Below, piece after piece: positions 11,884 to 51,422 of a stretch of DNA of 51,502 nucleotides (positions within the stretch are counted from its first letter, which is position 1; the number at the start of each line of letters is the position of its first letter). A program made the translations under genes and the position numbers. A model generated the notes under the pieces. That model saw nothing but the letters and a program-made list of their open reading frames with translations, had not been told where the DNA came from and did not search any database. The DNA is from an uncultured Bacilli bacterium. GTDB taxonomy: Bacteria; Bacillota_I; Bacilli_A; RF39; UBA660. The stretch covers positions 1-51,502 of the forward strand of contig CALVIP010000006.1 in assembly GCA_944331715.1 (NCBI GenBank), written 5' to 3'.

Positions 11884-12735
11884 TTATAAATTTTGATTAT
11901 ATAAACAACAAATTATTCTTAACCTTTTTTCATATCTATTCATATGATTTCTATAAGTTTCTTTCATAATACGAAAAATTTTAATAGTTCTATTTGTATG
12001 TTCTATTTTAATACGTTCTGATGATAATACTTTGTTATGTTCTTTTTCTTCTTCAGTAAGTTCATGATACTTACTCTTTTTATATGGAATTATTGCATTA
12101 TCAAGTTCTTTTTGAATGCCTTGATAACCACTATCAAATTTACCACCAATACCTAGTTCATTTAAATCATCTATAATATCACTATCTTTAAGCATTTGAT
12201 AATCATGAACTTTTCCTCTTTCATTATGTACATTAATAATCCTTGTTGTATTTTCGTCTATTATAATTTGATTTTTAGTTGTGTGTCTTTTTTTCTTCCC
12301 AGAATAGTTTTCTTCTTGGTTAATCTGAGGTCTTTCAATACCTTGTTCTTCAACATCACCTATAATATATTTAACTTCATATCCTTCTTGTTCTAATTTG
12401 GCTATTTCACTTTTTATATCTTCTAAACAAAATAATGGATGTTCTGATAATGTATTTTCTACCCATTTAATACTATCACAAACTGTTGATGGAGAAAGAT
12501 CATAATCTAATCCCATTTGTCTCATTGCCCTGTATTCTCTCCAATAGGTTAAAGCAAGTACTAGTTTACATCCTGGACCAATTCCTTTAAAACTACCTTT
12601 TTCATGTATTTGATTGTACTTTTCTTTTAGTATTTCTAACATTTTAAAAAATACTTCTCTTTTTACACCAGTATGTAGTTTAAATTTTTTATCATCCTCA
12701 ATTTGTAACCATTTTTCTAATTTTATTTGGATTCC
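11884..12735 (-). CDS. IS5-family DDE transposase (start codon uncertain, possible -1 frameshift product)
   Basis: The DDE_Tnp_4-type catalytic residues are visible: Asp in IIGDVEEQ, Asp in GKFDSGYQG and Glu in RIKIEHTNR, with the YSGKKKRHT motif of this group. The first in-frame ATG is at 12642. The conserved N-terminal region (LEKWLQIEDDKKFKLHTGV) continues upstream to about 12735 with no ATG, GTG or TTG. Translation could start at ATA 12726, six bases after an AAGGA. Alternatively it could come from a -1 slip at A_AAA_AAG (in the A8 run at 12736-12743) from the leader frame at 12723-12920. The element otherwise appears intact and possibly active. Confidence 0.8.
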   Translation of the reverse strand, partial: GIQIKLEKWLQIEDDKKFKLHTGVKREVFFKMLEILKEKYNQIHEKGSFKGIGPGCKLVLALTYWREYRAMRQMGLDYDLSPSTVCDSIKWVENTLSEHPLFCLEDIKSEIAKLEQEGYEVKYIIGDVEEQGIERPQINQEENYSGKKKRHTTKNQIIIDENTTRIINVHNERGKVHDYQMLKDSDIIDDLNELGIGGKFDSGYQGIQKELDNAIIPYKKSKYHELTEEEKEHNKVLSSERIKIEHTNRTIKIFRIMKETYRNHMNRYEKRLRIICCLYNQNL

Positions 12736-19147: not shown

Positions 19148-19220
19148 AAACATCACTGTCTTTCTATTAATATTAAATACATTTATATCATACAAGATAT
19201 TAACATTTTAAACAAGAAAA

Positions 19221-19246
19221 AAGTACTAATAGTTACTTTAATACTT
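19221..19246 (-). terminator. Terminator overlapping the 3' end of the first paralogous membrane gene
   Basis: Stem AAGTACTA/TAATACTT (one wobble) with a T-run on the minus strand; the stop codon at 19233 lies in the loop. A homologous terminator is found at 21439-21464, supporting common ancestry of the two genes. Confidence 0.55.
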
Positions 19247-19694
19247 TACTTCTTCCCTTATTAGCATAATCCATCAAGTCCATTGCAGATGTACCATACT
19301 TTACATCCAAAATATTCATATCTGCTACTTTAGTTATATCTTCTTTATTTTCTATAAAATACTTTAATTTTCTCATCTCTTGTATATCGAGATCAGCATA
19401 AAGAAGATGCCATGCCTCTTGCAATACACCTCCTATTGTACCTAAAGTAACAGAAACAGGTAAATAAGATAGGCATTCATATAACATACTTAATATATTA
19501 CTGTCATTTAAATTAAGAGTTATTCCAAACACATTACTCGCTACAGAAACACTTACAGGAATTGCAAAAGTTACCATTCCAGAAATAGTTCCTTTTACTA
19601 ATGACTTTTTAAATGTTTCTTTTTCATATACTGTTAAATCTGTAACTCTTACTTTATCTTCTAATTCTTTTATTTTTTCTTCTTTAGTTTTCAT
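19233..19694 (-). CDS. Small membrane protein, paralogue of the protein at 21480
   Basis: 153 aa: a charged N-terminal helix (1-30), two hydrophobic Gly/Val-rich spans (about 33-55 and 75-92) and a helical tail. LTVYEKETFKKSLVKG and VASNVFG match positions in the 104-aa protein at 21480 (LEIYEKDLKKNYAIKG, VANNVFG). The function is unknown. It lies immediately downstream of the Fic gene (15 bp) and may belong to that operon. Confidence 0.6.
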   Translation of the reverse strand: MKTKEEKIKELEDKVRVTDLTVYEKETFKKSLVKGTISGMVTFAIPVSVSVASNVFGITLNLNDSNILSMLYECLSYLPVSVTLGTIGGVLQEAWHLLYADLDIQEMRKLKYFIENKEDITKVADMNILDVKYGTSAMDLMDYANKGRSKVLK

Positions 19695-19709: not shown

Positions 19710-20516
19710 TTAAATATATAACTTATTATTATCTAATTCATTATTTTTACCTAGTAATAAGTTTTCAAAAAACATAACTAAGTAACGTTTATCTTCTTTA
19801 ATACCTTTATTATAATTTGTATAATTCGCTCTTACTAAAGCATTTCTAAAATATAGAGAATTATCTTTAAATAATTCATTATTAACTTCAAAACCCATAC
19901 TTATTAAATATTTTTGAATAAAGATAGCAGTTGTTCTAGTATTTCCTTCACTGAATGGATGCACTTGCCAAATTCTTGATGTAAACTCTGTTATTCTATT
20001 TACTAATTCACTCTCATTCATATTAATATAATCTATATTTTTTTCTTCTTCAAAATCATATTTTAAAGACTCTTCTATCAAGTCATAAGACTGATAACTT
20101 ACTGTATCATTATCTAATATTTCTTCATCTTTAGTAATATTATAAGTTCTAAATTCTCCAGGATGATATATATCTTTATCAAGATTTTGAAATAATCTTT
20201 TATGATAGTTTTTATAAGTCAGATAATCAAATCTAAAGGCTTTATCACTTAATATCTCATAGATAGCAAGCGATACTTCATCAGCTTCTTTTTCACTATT
20301 AGATACATTGTTATCTTTAGAATAGTATGATGTTATATCATCTTTAACTTCTTTATATGTTTTTTTACCATCAATATGTTCATTAGTTAACTCTACCATA
20401 TATTTAGATGGTTTTAATCTATCAACATCTTGTAATCCAAAGGCAATATTCCAATATAATTGTTTAACTTTAGGACTTTTTTCATCAAATACTTCAATAT
20501 AAGTTTTTTCGTTCAT
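19710..20516 (-). CDS. Fic/DOC family protein with VbhA-like N-terminal segment
   Basis: A protein of about 268 aa. The Fic active site HPFSEGNTR (His186) is intact, so AMPylation or a related nucleotidyl transfer to a target protein is expected. The final Arg of HxFx[DE]GNxRxxR is Ala. Residues ~20-65 (FGLQDVDRLKPS, then TNEHIDGKKTYKEV) resemble a fused antitoxin-like helical domain. I see no clear [ST]xxxE[GN] inhibitory motif. The ATG at 20516 is chosen over the GTG at 20525 because of the GGGAGTG spacing. It lies 20 bp after the PemK gene, in the Panacea-PemK-Fic operon. Confidence 0.85.
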   Translation of the reverse strand: MNEKTYIEVFDEKSPKVKQLYWNIAFGLQDVDRLKPSKYMVELTNEHIDGKKTYKEVKDDITSYYSKDNNVSNSEKEADEVSLAIYEILSDKAFRFDYLTYKNYHKRLFQNLDKDIYHPGEFRTYNITKDEEILDNDTVSYQSYDLIEESLKYDFEEEKNIDYINMNESELVNRITEFTSRIWQVHPFSEGNTRTTAIFIQKYLISMGFEVNNELFKDNSLYFRNALVRANYTNYNKGIKEDKRYLVMFFENLLLGKNNELDNNKLYI

Positions 20517-20536
20517 AGTTATCACTCCCTCTTAAT

Positions 20537-20896
20537 CTATAAATATAATTTTGATATTAAATCATCTTGATATGCTTGATATTTCTTTACAAATTCTTCT
20601 TTTTTACTAGAAGGTAAGTCTGCTATTTTAACACCTAACTTACTTCTAGGTCCTGTATATATCTTAGTTGTTTTAATTATAGATTGTCTTGCTAATCCCA
20701 ATTCTTTTGCTAACTTCTTATCTAATAAAACATCATAGATACCACATTCTGCAGATGAAGAGATAATTACATAATGGATATCTACATACTGTAACTGATT
20801 ATTACTATCATCACCAATTACTAAAACTGGTCTTACTTTCGCTTCTTTTGTATTATTAGGTTTTGTTGCTACATAAGTCCAAATTTCTCCCTGCAT
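20537..20896 (-). CDS. PemK/MazF-type toxin
   Basis: A protein of about 119 aa beginning MQGEIWTYVATKPNNTKEAK, followed by VRPVLVIGDD, the typical MazF-fold opening. ARQSIIKTTKIY resembles the second conserved block. An endoribonuclease is likely. The ATG overlaps the upstream Panacea gene stop as TAATG, so synthesis is coupled to the putative antitoxin. Confidence 0.75.
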   Translation of the reverse strand: MQGEIWTYVATKPNNTKEAKVRPVLVIGDDSNNQLQYVDIHYVIISSSAECGIYDVLLDKKLAKELGLARQSIIKTTKIYTGPRSKLGVKIADLPSSKKEEFVKKYQAYQDDLISKLYL

Positions 20897-21360
20897 TAAT
20901 CCCACTCCTCATCATCTGGTTGTAATACATAACTAGTAAAATAGGAAGCAATATTAGATTTAGGAATTGTCTTATCACTTCTCTCATCTGGATCCAAACC
21001 TGTGCGTGATAATAACCAAGGTTCTTCTTTATGGGTTATCTCTTCTAAATACTTGCCATCATATTTTGCATAATTTCTCTTAACGTATTCTAATAAGTCT
21101 ATAACATCTTTATTAAAGTCTTTTAAGTTATAATTTAAATCAATAGGATTATACTCGTAACTTTTATATTCGTGATATATAGAAGGAATAACTGGCCCAT
21201 GAACCCAAGCTTCAAAGTCATCATTAAATAGCGCTTTATCATAAAAAGCATAAGAAAAACCTTGAGCAAAATATAATAATTTTTGTAATTTTAAAGGTTC
21301 AGGATGTAGTTCATTTATAAAGTATTTAGCAATGTCCATAGCTTTATATTCATTTTCCAT
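20896..21360 (-). CDS. Panacea (SocA-like, DUF4065) antitoxin-like protein
   Basis: 154 aa with the family core KLQKLLYFAQGFSYAFY, WVHGPVIPSIYHEYKSY and the EITHKEEPW block. Panacea domains serve as antitoxins against unrelated toxins. Here the gene is first in a coupled operon ahead of a PemK-type toxin and a Fic protein, so it probably neutralises one or both. GGAGGAG precedes the ATG. Confidence 0.85.
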   Translation of the reverse strand: MENEYKAMDIAKYFINELHPEPLKLQKLLYFAQGFSYAFYDKALFNDDFEAWVHGPVIPSIYHEYKSYEYNPIDLNYNLKDFNKDVIDLLEYVKRNYAKYDGKYLEEITHKEEPWLLSRTGLDPDERSDKTIPKSNIASYFTSYVLQPDDEEWD

Positions 21361-21438
21361 TAATTAATCTCCTCCTAACGTTTTATTAAATATAGAATAG
21401 CATAACCTAAACAAATATTCTAGTTATTTTATGAAAAA

Positions 21439-21464
21439 AAGTACTAAGAGTTATCTTAATACTT
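21439..21464 (-). terminator. Terminator downstream of the 104-aa membrane gene
   Basis: Imperfect stem AAGTACTAAGA/TCTTAATACTT with T7 on the minus strand, between the 104-aa gene and the Panacea operon. It separates the two transcription units. Confidence 0.7.
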
Positions 21465-21479
21465 TTTATCAAAAAAATA

Positions 21480-21794
21480 CTATTTCATTTTTCTTACTTT
21501 CTCTTCTGCTTTAGCTTGTGAGATTGCAACTGGAATAGATGCTAAAGCACCACTAGTTACTACTGCACCAAGCAAAGTTTCTATAGTTCCATAAAAATTA
21601 TTGACAAAATCACCAACAAAAGTAGCATCATCCATTCTAAAATTCATTCCAAAAACATTATTTGCTACAGCAATACCAATAGGTATAGCGGATATTGCTA
21701 CTCCTGCAACTGCTCCTTTAATAGCATAATTCTTCTTCAAATCTTTCTCATAGATTTCTAAATTAGAAACTTTATTTTCTTTACTATTTTTCAT
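21480..21794 (-). CDS. Small membrane protein, paralogue of the protein at 19233
   Basis: 104 aa with a basic N-terminus and two hydrophobic spans (about 27-47 and 75-93). The region LEIYEKDLKKNYAIKG then IPIGIAVANNVFG aligns with the 153-aa protein at the other end of the Panacea-PemK-Fic operon. The function is unknown. AAAGGGGG precedes the ATG. Confidence 0.6.
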   Translation of the reverse strand: MKNSKENKVSNLEIYEKDLKKNYAIKGAVAGVAISAIPIGIAVANNVFGMNFRMDDATFVGDFVNNFYGTIETLLGAVVTSGALASIPVAISQAKAEEKVRKMK

Positions 21795-25667: not shown

Positions 25668-26090
25668 CTATGCTACTACTTTTTCTTTTTTACTTTCTTT
25701 ATACTTTTTTGAAATTTTTGCTAAAGCTTCTGTATTGATTATATTATACACTTCATTGTATACTGACATTAATTCTTCTTCTGGAAGTTTAGCAATTTTT
25801 CTTTCGAATTGAGCTTTTTCTATTTTTATTGGCATTTCTATTCTAATATATGACTTTTTAGCTAAGCCTATTTTTCGCCAATCTTTTATTAGTTTTCTTT
25901 TATATCTATCATATTGTGTAGTTAATTTTAAAACATGAAAGTTTCTATTATCCTCTTCAACAATTAATCCACGTCCGTCATCTAAAATAAGACATGGTCT
26001 TCGTTGTAATTTAACATTAATATCATTATTTTTGTCAATTTCTAATATTGGAATTGTTACTAACCAAATTTCACCGATTTCTGCATTCAT
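25668..26090 (-). CDS. PemK/MazF-like toxin
   Basis: 140 aa. The opening IGEIWLVTIPILEIDKNND, then RRPCLILDDGRGLIVEED, is the MazF-type start with an insertion. AKKSYIRIEM parallels the second conserved block. A lysine-rich tail follows. A probable endoribonuclease, paired with the 68-aa gene one base upstream. It is unrelated in detail to the PemK at 20537. Confidence 0.65.
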   Translation of the reverse strand: MNAEIGEIWLVTIPILEIDKNNDINVKLQRRPCLILDDGRGLIVEEDNRNFHVLKLTTQYDRYKRKLIKDWRKIGLAKKSYIRIEMPIKIEKAQFERKIAKLPEEELMSVYNEVYNIINTEALAKISKKYKESKKEKVVA

Positions 26091-49558: not shown

Positions 49559-51422
49559 GTAGAGGAAATTAAATAATAATAGTTATTTAATTTGCCCCTC
49601 TCACACCACCGTACGTACGGTTCTCGTATACGGCGGTTTAATTTGTATTAAATATGTACTTTTGAATAATATTCTAGTGGAAACACTAGACCTTTTTGTT
49701 TTAACCTATTGTTTGATATAGCCATGTGTAAGACTACAGTCGATGCCACAAAGTAGTAACCTCTTCTAGTATTCGCTACCATATATGCGGTTTCTTCTTT
49801 AATACCCAATTTCCTGAGTGCCTTATATTTAGCCCTAGGTATTTTCCAGTATTTCCAAATACACATCCTTAACCTATGTCTTAGATGTTCACCAACTTCT
49901 TTCATAGTGTTTTTCATATCTGCTATCTTAAAATAGTTAATCCATCCTCGAGTTACTTGGTTAAGTCTTTCTATTTTGTAGTCTATTGACTTGCCATCAC
50001 TTCTATCAGTTATTTCTTTTAGTTTGTTTACAAACTTTTTAACTGATTTAATATGTGGCTTAGGTCTCCATATTCCCTTATTATTCTTGTAAAATCCAAA
50101 ACCTAAGTATTTTATTTGTCTAGGTCTTGCTACTTTACTTTTCTCTACATTTACTTTTAATCCTAATTTCTTAGTAATAAATGTAGTTATACTTTCCATA
50201 ACTCTATTAGCAGCTTTTTCACTCTTTACCATTATAAGACAGTCATCGGCATATCTAACAAAGTTTAAGCCTCTTTTCTCTAGTTCTTTATCAAGTTCAT
50301 TTAGCATTATATTTGATAATAGTGGACTTAAGTTTCCTCCTTGCGGAGTGCCCTTGTTAGTTTCTACAACTACTCCTTTTTCCATTACTCCACTTTGTAG
50401 AAATTTTCTAATTAGTGAAATAACATCATTATCTTTTATAGTTCTGTGAACTATTGCCATTAATTTGTCTTGATTAACTTCGTCAAAGAATGATTCCAAG
50501 TCTATATCTACTATATAGTCATAGCCGTCATTGAAACACTCTAGTGCCTTTATTACTGCCATTTCACAACTCCTTTTTGGTCTAAAACCATATGAACTAT
50601 TAGAAAACTGTTCTTCATAGATAGGAGTTAGGACTTGTACTATCGCTTGTTGTAATACTCTATCTATTACACTAGGTATTCCTAGCTTCCTCATTTTTCC
50701 ATTTTCCTTTGGTATTTCTACCCTCCTCACAGGTTGTGGCTTATATTTCCTATTTCTTATCTGCCATAGTATTTCTTCTTTATGTTCTTTTATATAAGGA
50801 GATAATTCTTCAACAGTAACACCATCAACACCACTGGCTCCCTTATTTCTATAGACTTGCTTATAAGCCTTATTTAAGTTATCTCTTGAAAGTATTTTCT
50901 CTAAAAGTTCCATATCTGTTCTTCCTTTCTATTATCGTACTTAGGTTATCATCTTTTATAGGATTATTATTTGAATACGTCAATTTTCCCTACTTATTTA
51001 TTCTGATTTAACCTATTCCAGTATTAGTAGTTAGAACTACAAATTATTCAGTCCTTCCTAATATTTATATTAGTACTATGACCTCGGCTGACTTCTTGCA
51101 ATAAACCTTTTTCGACCAGTTTTCTTTATAGGGTCCTCCTTAACTGTTTGCAAGACCTCCCGTGGTAAGACATATCACTTTCCTCGTTTAGCCACTTAAA
51201 TTACTTATGCAGAGTTACGGGTATCTTTTGGACTTCAGTTTGTCATGCAACCTTATCCGTCTACATAGCCTTTTAAGTTCCTGTTCGTTGGCCCACGATT
51301 TTGTTTCACACTTCCTTTAGCCCCAACCTCACGGTTGATGCGTTGTGCTTCCCTAACACTTCGTCGATACCTACGCGTGTAGTGGACTTGCACCACCTAG
51401 CGATATGCCATGCACGGCACAC
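49559..51422 (-). mobile_element. Group II intron, class C-like (1,864 nt)
   Basis: The 5' end GTGTG (51418-51422) opens an ~500-nt ribozyme region. It is followed by the reverse transcriptase gene, then domain V (approximately 49603-49637, ACCGCCGTATACG/CGTACGTACGGTGG) and domain VI (49559-49600, paired around AAATTAAATAA) ending CTAC. It sits just downstream of a terminator hairpin, the insertion habit of group IIC introns. Exact ends are inferred from the conserved termini. The gap 50914-51417 is domains I-III, not protein-coding. Confidence 0.8.
49648..50913 (-). CDS. ltrA: Group II intron reverse transcriptase/maturase (LtrA-like)
   Basis: 421 aa. Reverse transcriptase blocks include GVDG, IPKENGKMRKLGIPSV, SSYGFRPKRSC and the active site YADD (221-224), with Asp137 in IVDIDLESFFD. 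The C-terminal maturase (GIIM) region WINYFKIADMKNTMKEV is present. There is no HNH endonuclease domain, as in class C introns. The product should splice and mobilise the intron. The frame is intact with no stop, suggesting a working element. Confidence 0.95.
   Translation of the reverse strand: MELLEKILSRDNLNKAYKQVYRNKGASGVDGVTVEELSPYIKEHKEEILWQIRNRKYKPQPVRRVEIPKENGKMRKLGIPSVIDRVLQQAIVQVLTPIYEEQFSNSSYGFRPKRSCEMAVIKALECFNDGYDYIVDIDLESFFDEVNQDKLMAIVHRTIKDNDVISLIRKFLQSGVMEKGVVVETNKGTPQGGNLSPLLSNIMLNELDKELEKRGLNFVRYADDCLIMVKSEKAANRVMESITTFITKKLGLKVNVEKSKVARPRQIKYLGFGFYKNNKGIWRPKPHIKSVKKFVNKLKEITDRSDGKSIDYKIERLNQVTRGWINYFKIADMKNTMKEVGEHLRHRLRMCIWKYWKIPRAKYKALRKLGIKEETAYMVANTRRGYYFVASTVVLHMAISNNRLKQKGLVFPLEYYSKVHI

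Follow-up and report, generated by a model that had tools for sequence, protein, structure and literature searches.

A Panacea-PemK-Fic gene run in an uncultured Bacilli bacterium: one system or two?

Introduction

Does a single Panacea protein hold two different toxins in check where its gene is followed by both a PemK-type RNase gene and a Fic gene? Such a run occurs in the gut-type genome of an uncultured Bacilli bacterium, which makes it a clear natural test case: do three such genes in a row constitute a single system or two? According to the sections of Kurata et al., 2022 on which we draw, the antitoxin domain Panacea is hyperpromiscuous, and the toxins with which it separately pairs include PemK-like and Fic/Doc proteins; third genes occur at Panacea loci sporadically, and a general role for them in neutralisation was considered unlikely (PMC8832971). 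Among the published PanAT systems in those sections we noticed no triplet that combines PemK with Fic (Kurata et al., 2022, PMC8832971). A preliminary description of the locus proposed that its Panacea protein could restrain one or both of the two effectors. Here we consider this proposal with regard to the distribution, sequence and surroundings of the three genes in related genomes.

Layout of the locus

The window, by which we mean the whole stretch of DNA analysed (51,502 nucleotides of contig CALVIP010000006.1), carries the following features at the locus.

21480..21794, minus strand: 104-aa paralogue of the 153-aa protein, upstream of Panacea (local alignment, 53 columns)
21435..21462, minus strand: terminator-like hairpin ending the upstream unit (28-nt pattern)
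21361..21434, minus strand: leader common to Panacea and solo fic, presumed to be promoter and 5' region (alignment of the sequences that precede the two genes)
20896..21360, minus strand: Panacea (SocA/DUF4065) protein, 154 aa, predicted antitoxin (PanA) of PemK (Pfam SocA_Panacea, 2.4e-23)
20537..20896, minus strand: PemK/MazF-fold predicted endoribonuclease toxin, 119 aa (Pfam PemK_toxin, 3.7e-10)
19710..20516, minus strand: Fic-domain protein of Fic2/PDC-S72 type, 268 aa (Pfam Fic, 9.5e-11; PADLOC PDC-S72, 1.7e-83)
19233..19694, minus strand: genus-specific protein of 153 aa, encoded by the run's fourth gene, 15 bp 3' of Fic
19217..19244, minus strand: second copy of the terminator-like hairpin, downstream of the block (28-nt pattern)

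The coordinates and order first reported for Panacea, PemK and Fic are correct; the genes form a tight run on the minus strand. The TAATG coupling is also as described, with the stop of Panacea and the start of PemK overlapping by 1 bp, and 20 bp lie between the PemK stop and the Fic ATG. All three products score above their Pfam cut-offs (Panacea 83.6 bits against 25.7 for SocA_Panacea, PemK 40.4 against 23.1 for PemK_toxin, Fic 42.8 against 24 for Fic). The exact triplet recurs at 99.3–100% nucleotide identity in 7 of 35 genomes of the genus (draft assemblies; our own genome and 34 others), and hence its arrangement is not due to chance.

The two paralogous genes that frame this slot belong to a family with matches in 25 genomes of the genus and none outside it. 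Their products match none of the families in Pfam, NCBIfam or PADLOC with a meaningful score and, read by eye, are probably membrane proteins. Most relatives have the 104-aa paralogue at the corresponding place. The 153-aa gene lies 15 bp 3' of Fic in three triplet strains and several strains with a solo Fic, and it is degenerate in four of the seven triplet strains (G006, G015, G019, G032). Within the window the 28-nt hairpin pattern is found only at 21462-21435 and 19244-19217, with none expected by chance, and the segment around the first hairpin (21470-21410) folds at -15.2 kcal/mol (z -4.65). Each hairpin sits near the 3' end of a unit of the 153/104-aa family. Mobile DNA can also be read from the translations of the window, namely a transposase-like gene (11884-12642) and a group II intron-type reverse transcriptase (49648-50913).

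A predicted Panacea-PemK toxin-antitoxin pair

PemK is directly preceded by Panacea in all nine genus genomes that have it, two divergent ones (84–96% protein identity) included. Both genes are under purifying selection, with dN/dS of 0.05–0.09 for Panacea and 0.08–0.09 for PemK. Assignment to the PemK/MazF endoribonucleases is based on the PemK_toxin profile and the catalytic Arg region, both of which are present; the protein weakly matches MazF6 (5hk3), with KVRPVLVI aligned to KRRPVLVI in the conserved Arg region. Because the linkage is obligate, and because Panacea-PemK loci are among those published (in the part of PMC8832971 used here), the prediction that Panacea is the antitoxin of PemK is well supported. 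Judged from sequence, the pair is a predicted PanAT-type toxin-antitoxin pair that adds to the published kind, and the locus thereby supplies a well-sampled example. The proposal that Panacea could restrain one or both effectors is thus well supported for PemK, but its extension to Fic is unsupported.

No relatives turned up when viral contigs were scanned for Panacea and PemK, when plasmids were searched with PemK, or when Panacea was compared with PDB sequences. Outside the genus PemK has few relatives; these are ~40% identical, and those whose loci were examined have no adjoining Panacea. In 63 further Panacea loci (genus, class and phylum; 1.5 kb flanks) no Fic motif was found nearby and a related PemK was found only in G021 and G022, with the proviso that the local Panacea and PemK profiles were built from few sequences and very divergent partners could escape them. 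The Panacea homologues of G333, G274, G536 and G507 are often multi-copy and carry in-frame TGA, as expected where the organism reads TGA as Trp. A second, divergent PemK-like gene lies elsewhere in the window (25668-26090, minus strand; 23.2 bits against the Pfam cut-off of 23.1) with no evident adjoining antitoxin; G032 has it at the corresponding place (96%), and it was not listed in several other relatives.

Fic without Panacea

Is Fic also under the control of Panacea, as a tripartite system in which one PanA neutralises both PemK and Fic would have it? Several features of the locus would suit such a system: the three genes are tightly packed under one leader, the Fic protein lacks the classical inhibitory motif, the triplet is passed on as one block in seven species, and elsewhere, in the C. 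doosanense pair, Panacea does neutralise a Fic/Doc toxin (PMC8832971, part consulted). The distribution of the genes argues the other way. Intact Fic, 94–96% identical, is present without Panacea-PemK in five genomes of the genus (G034, G030, G025, G027, G009), and three genomes of other genera carry a Fic at 75–78% identity without Panacea, so that relatives carrying the Fic gene elsewhere, which the preliminary description had named as grounds for giving up the triplet, do exist. A Pfam-level search (PF13274) found no Panacea anywhere in the genomes of G025, G024, G049, G066 and G046; four of the eight genomes with an intact solo Fic (G025, G049, G066, G046) therefore have none at all, although in draft assemblies (our own genome is 87.6% complete) such an absence may sometimes reflect missing data. 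Between triplet and solo strains of the genus, Fic has a dN/dS of 0.08–0.12, i.e. it is under purifying selection, also where PanA is lacking. In a tree of fic the triplet copies group tightly, their split from the solo copies being modestly supported (67–69%).

Panacea-PemK is likewise found without Fic. In G021 and G022 the pair fills the slot and Fic is absent from the locus; a query with the window Fic found no match anywhere in the G021 genome. A wider scan of the genome collection found at least 569 Fic relatives; among the best 80 loci, the local Panacea profile places Panacea beside Fic in only two, both of them same-genus triplets, and not in the other 78, so the suggested neighbourhood survey did not reveal a conserved triplet. 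No tight upstream or downstream partner family was common to more than three of these 80 loci, and outside the genus the Panacea-PemK-Fic triplet was not found in either the best 80 Fic loci or the 63 Panacea loci. On this evidence a dual antitoxin is very unlikely. Presence and absence in relatives, together with purifying selection, indicate instead that the unit consists of Panacea and PemK, with Fic next to it and separable from it. As a block the triplet is genuine and of recent spread, but it does not amount to a conserved tripartite system.

A cassette behind a shared leader

The solo Fic genes also bear on how the run arose. In G034, G027 and G030 the solo Fic occupies the same slot, with a RelSpo-like gene on one side and a U32 peptidase gene on the other; G025 and G009 share the U32 flank but differ at the opposite one. 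In the alignment, the ~75–100 bases upstream of Panacea are the leader that is found directly upstream of fic in Fic-only strains. G030, for example, matches the window along the leader as far as 21382 and again from the fic ribosome-binding site (20547) onwards, without any intervening sequence. Panacea-PemK is hence a cassette that lies between leader and fic. The leader is 98–100% identical among triplet strains; a scan for consensus sigma-70 promoters gave no excess over shuffles, and it is on conservation that we base its designation. Presence and absence in close relatives and the shared leader together mark Panacea-PemK and Fic as separable cargo.

The block from leader to Fic is 98–100% identical across seven species, while in the triplet genomes its upstream flanks are 80–99% and U32 91–96% identical; given this difference from the flanks, recent recombination between species has moved the block as a whole. 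Cargo is exchanged in the slot, probably by homologous recombination, for which the paralogous flanking genes, the repeated terminator-like hairpin and the shared leader would be plausible anchors. Relatives have other cargo in this slot, including what reads as an ABC transporter set (L081 6444-8885) and a protein of 144–146 aa with a weak DUF2383 match (L080 1250-1684; L091 7499-7939).

Taken together, we consider it probable that the run consists of two independent modules stacked behind one leader, a PanAT-type pair and a Fic protein independent of PanA. In the first module the MazF-fold RNase PemK would be bound and held by PanA, and once PanA was lost PemK would be free to cleave RNA. 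The second would consist of an orphan Fic2/PDC-S72-type enzyme that has no need of PanA and is a candidate for abortive infection or growth arrest. The leader would drive fic alone in Fic-only strains, the PanA-PemK cassette lies between this leader and the fic ribosome-binding site, and in triplet strains Panacea, PemK and Fic are probably carried on one mRNA.

Some observations weigh against two modules. It is the whole triplet that spreads among the seven species, and the three genes could work together. Two fic copies without Panacea-PemK are broken (G023, G024), as might be expected if Fic carries a cost when it has no partner. Dual restraint by Panacea in the triplet strains is possible, and the evidence does not require it. 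That PanA has been recruited in the triplet lineages as a shared antitoxin, holding the MazF-type RNase as well as the Fic2-type protein modifier, seems to us highly improbable; if true, a single trigger would set free two toxins of different chemistry.

The two modules might also be joined in purpose. Fic and PanA-PemK might both be effectors of a single response to phage, or PanA-PemK might act as an addiction lock by which the block with fic is retained in the genome. The spread of the block as a unit would fit such a linked defence unit, as would the match to PDC-S72, a PADLOC phage defence candidate, in all 66 Fic family members scanned. Some Fic relatives (75–78% identical) are directly followed by a gene which by eye is HsdM-like (L086 8470-10050) or Cas9-like (L088 8983-12219), which would agree with the PDC-S72 family serving in defence. 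Set against this, the modules separate freely in relatives and PDC-S72 is itself only a candidate model, for which no paper describing it or showing its function was found in the literature. We regard a linked defence unit as distinctly unlikely.

The Fic protein and its restraint

If Fic is independent of PanA, as we favour, it would be kept in check by its own N-terminal helix or by an unlinked partner. The Fic motif of the window protein (HPFSEGNTRTTA) departs from the canonical AMP-transferase motif HxFx(D/E)GNGRxxR, which it does not match, by Gly to Thr and by second Arg to Ala; the Ala (A197) is invariant in the 66-sequence family alignment. The classical inhibitory motif is missing, as the preliminary description had suspected, with no match to (S/T)xxxE(G/N) anywhere in the protein. 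The N-terminal segment had been called VbhA-like, which is apt for the position of the helix but not for its sequence, as there is no Antitoxin_VbhA match at E<=0.1. A VbhT/VbhA-like system was rejected, since no such domain or gene was found at that threshold among the five genes scanned.

Where the inhibitory motif would be expected there is a helix with GLQxVD, invariant in both family alignments; in A2 this conservation partly follows from the search patterns of the scan, but A1, built before the scan, has GLQxVD too. Some relatives left out of A2 have GLNKVD or GLQDID instead. The AlphaFold2 model of the window Fic (pLDDT 92.8) aligns to the class II-type Fics 3cuc, 4x2d and 3eqx over 244–268 columns (TM 0.56–0.57), and because this confident model aligns over most of its length, self-restraint by the GLQxVD helix is plausible. 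The window Fic lacks a C-terminal extension that is present in many relatives (L020, L022, L025 and numerous members of A2); the extension of L020 matches the winged helix-turn-helix HTH_24.

Restraint could alternatively act in trans. Campylobacter fetus Fic2, the best characterised relative, is toxic to E. coli and interferes with ribosomes; the class II protein Fic1, which overlaps it, acts as its antitoxin (PMC5651007). By analogy, a solo Fic need not be self-restrained, and this too weighs against two modules. Here an unlinked Fic or the downstream 153-aa protein might play the part of Fic1, an arrangement that concerns the control of Fic alone and is compatible with two modules. Our genome encodes four further Fic-domain proteins, one of which (C25) has SARLEG, a class II-type inhibitory motif, and the closeness of the 153-aa gene to Fic in several strains could point the same way. 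The adjacent Fic1 partner of C. fetus is, however, missing here. Fic stays intact in the four triplet strains with a degenerate 153-aa gene, and for this reason the 153-aa protein was judged unlikely to be the antitoxin of Fic. Overall, restraint in trans seems possible, if rather less likely than not to apply.

Comparison with known systems

The window Fic belongs by sequence to the widespread, mostly orphan Fic2/PDC-S72 family, in which the second motif Arg is lost and a GLQxVD helix stands at the position of the inhibitory motif. A Fic2-type protein of a C. fetus plasmid aligns with it over nearly its full length (E 4e-48, 44% identity), and both have a degenerate FIC motif (HPFxEGNTRTxA), HPFREGNTRTIA in C. 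fetus Fic2; with degenerate motif and full-length similarity, the window protein falls within the C. fetus Fic2 group. The surroundings differ. In C. fetus Fic2 overlaps its antitoxin Fic1, and the Fic1-type neighbour of the plasmid protein carries the classical STAIEG motif, whereas here PanA-PemK takes the upstream position and no class II Fic is adjacent. The full-length PADLOC match places the protein with PDC-S72, subject to the candidate status of that model.

The window PemK shares the profile and the conserved Arg region with MazF/PemK endoribonucleases, but is paired with Panacea instead of MazE/PemI. A close likeness is to PanAT, in which, as far as the consulted part of the source goes, a stand-alone Panacea gene likewise comes first, an overlapping toxin gene follows, and PemK-like and Fic/Doc toxins count as published partners (PMC8832971). 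What distinguishes the present locus from PanAT is that a Fic gene of another lineage comes third.
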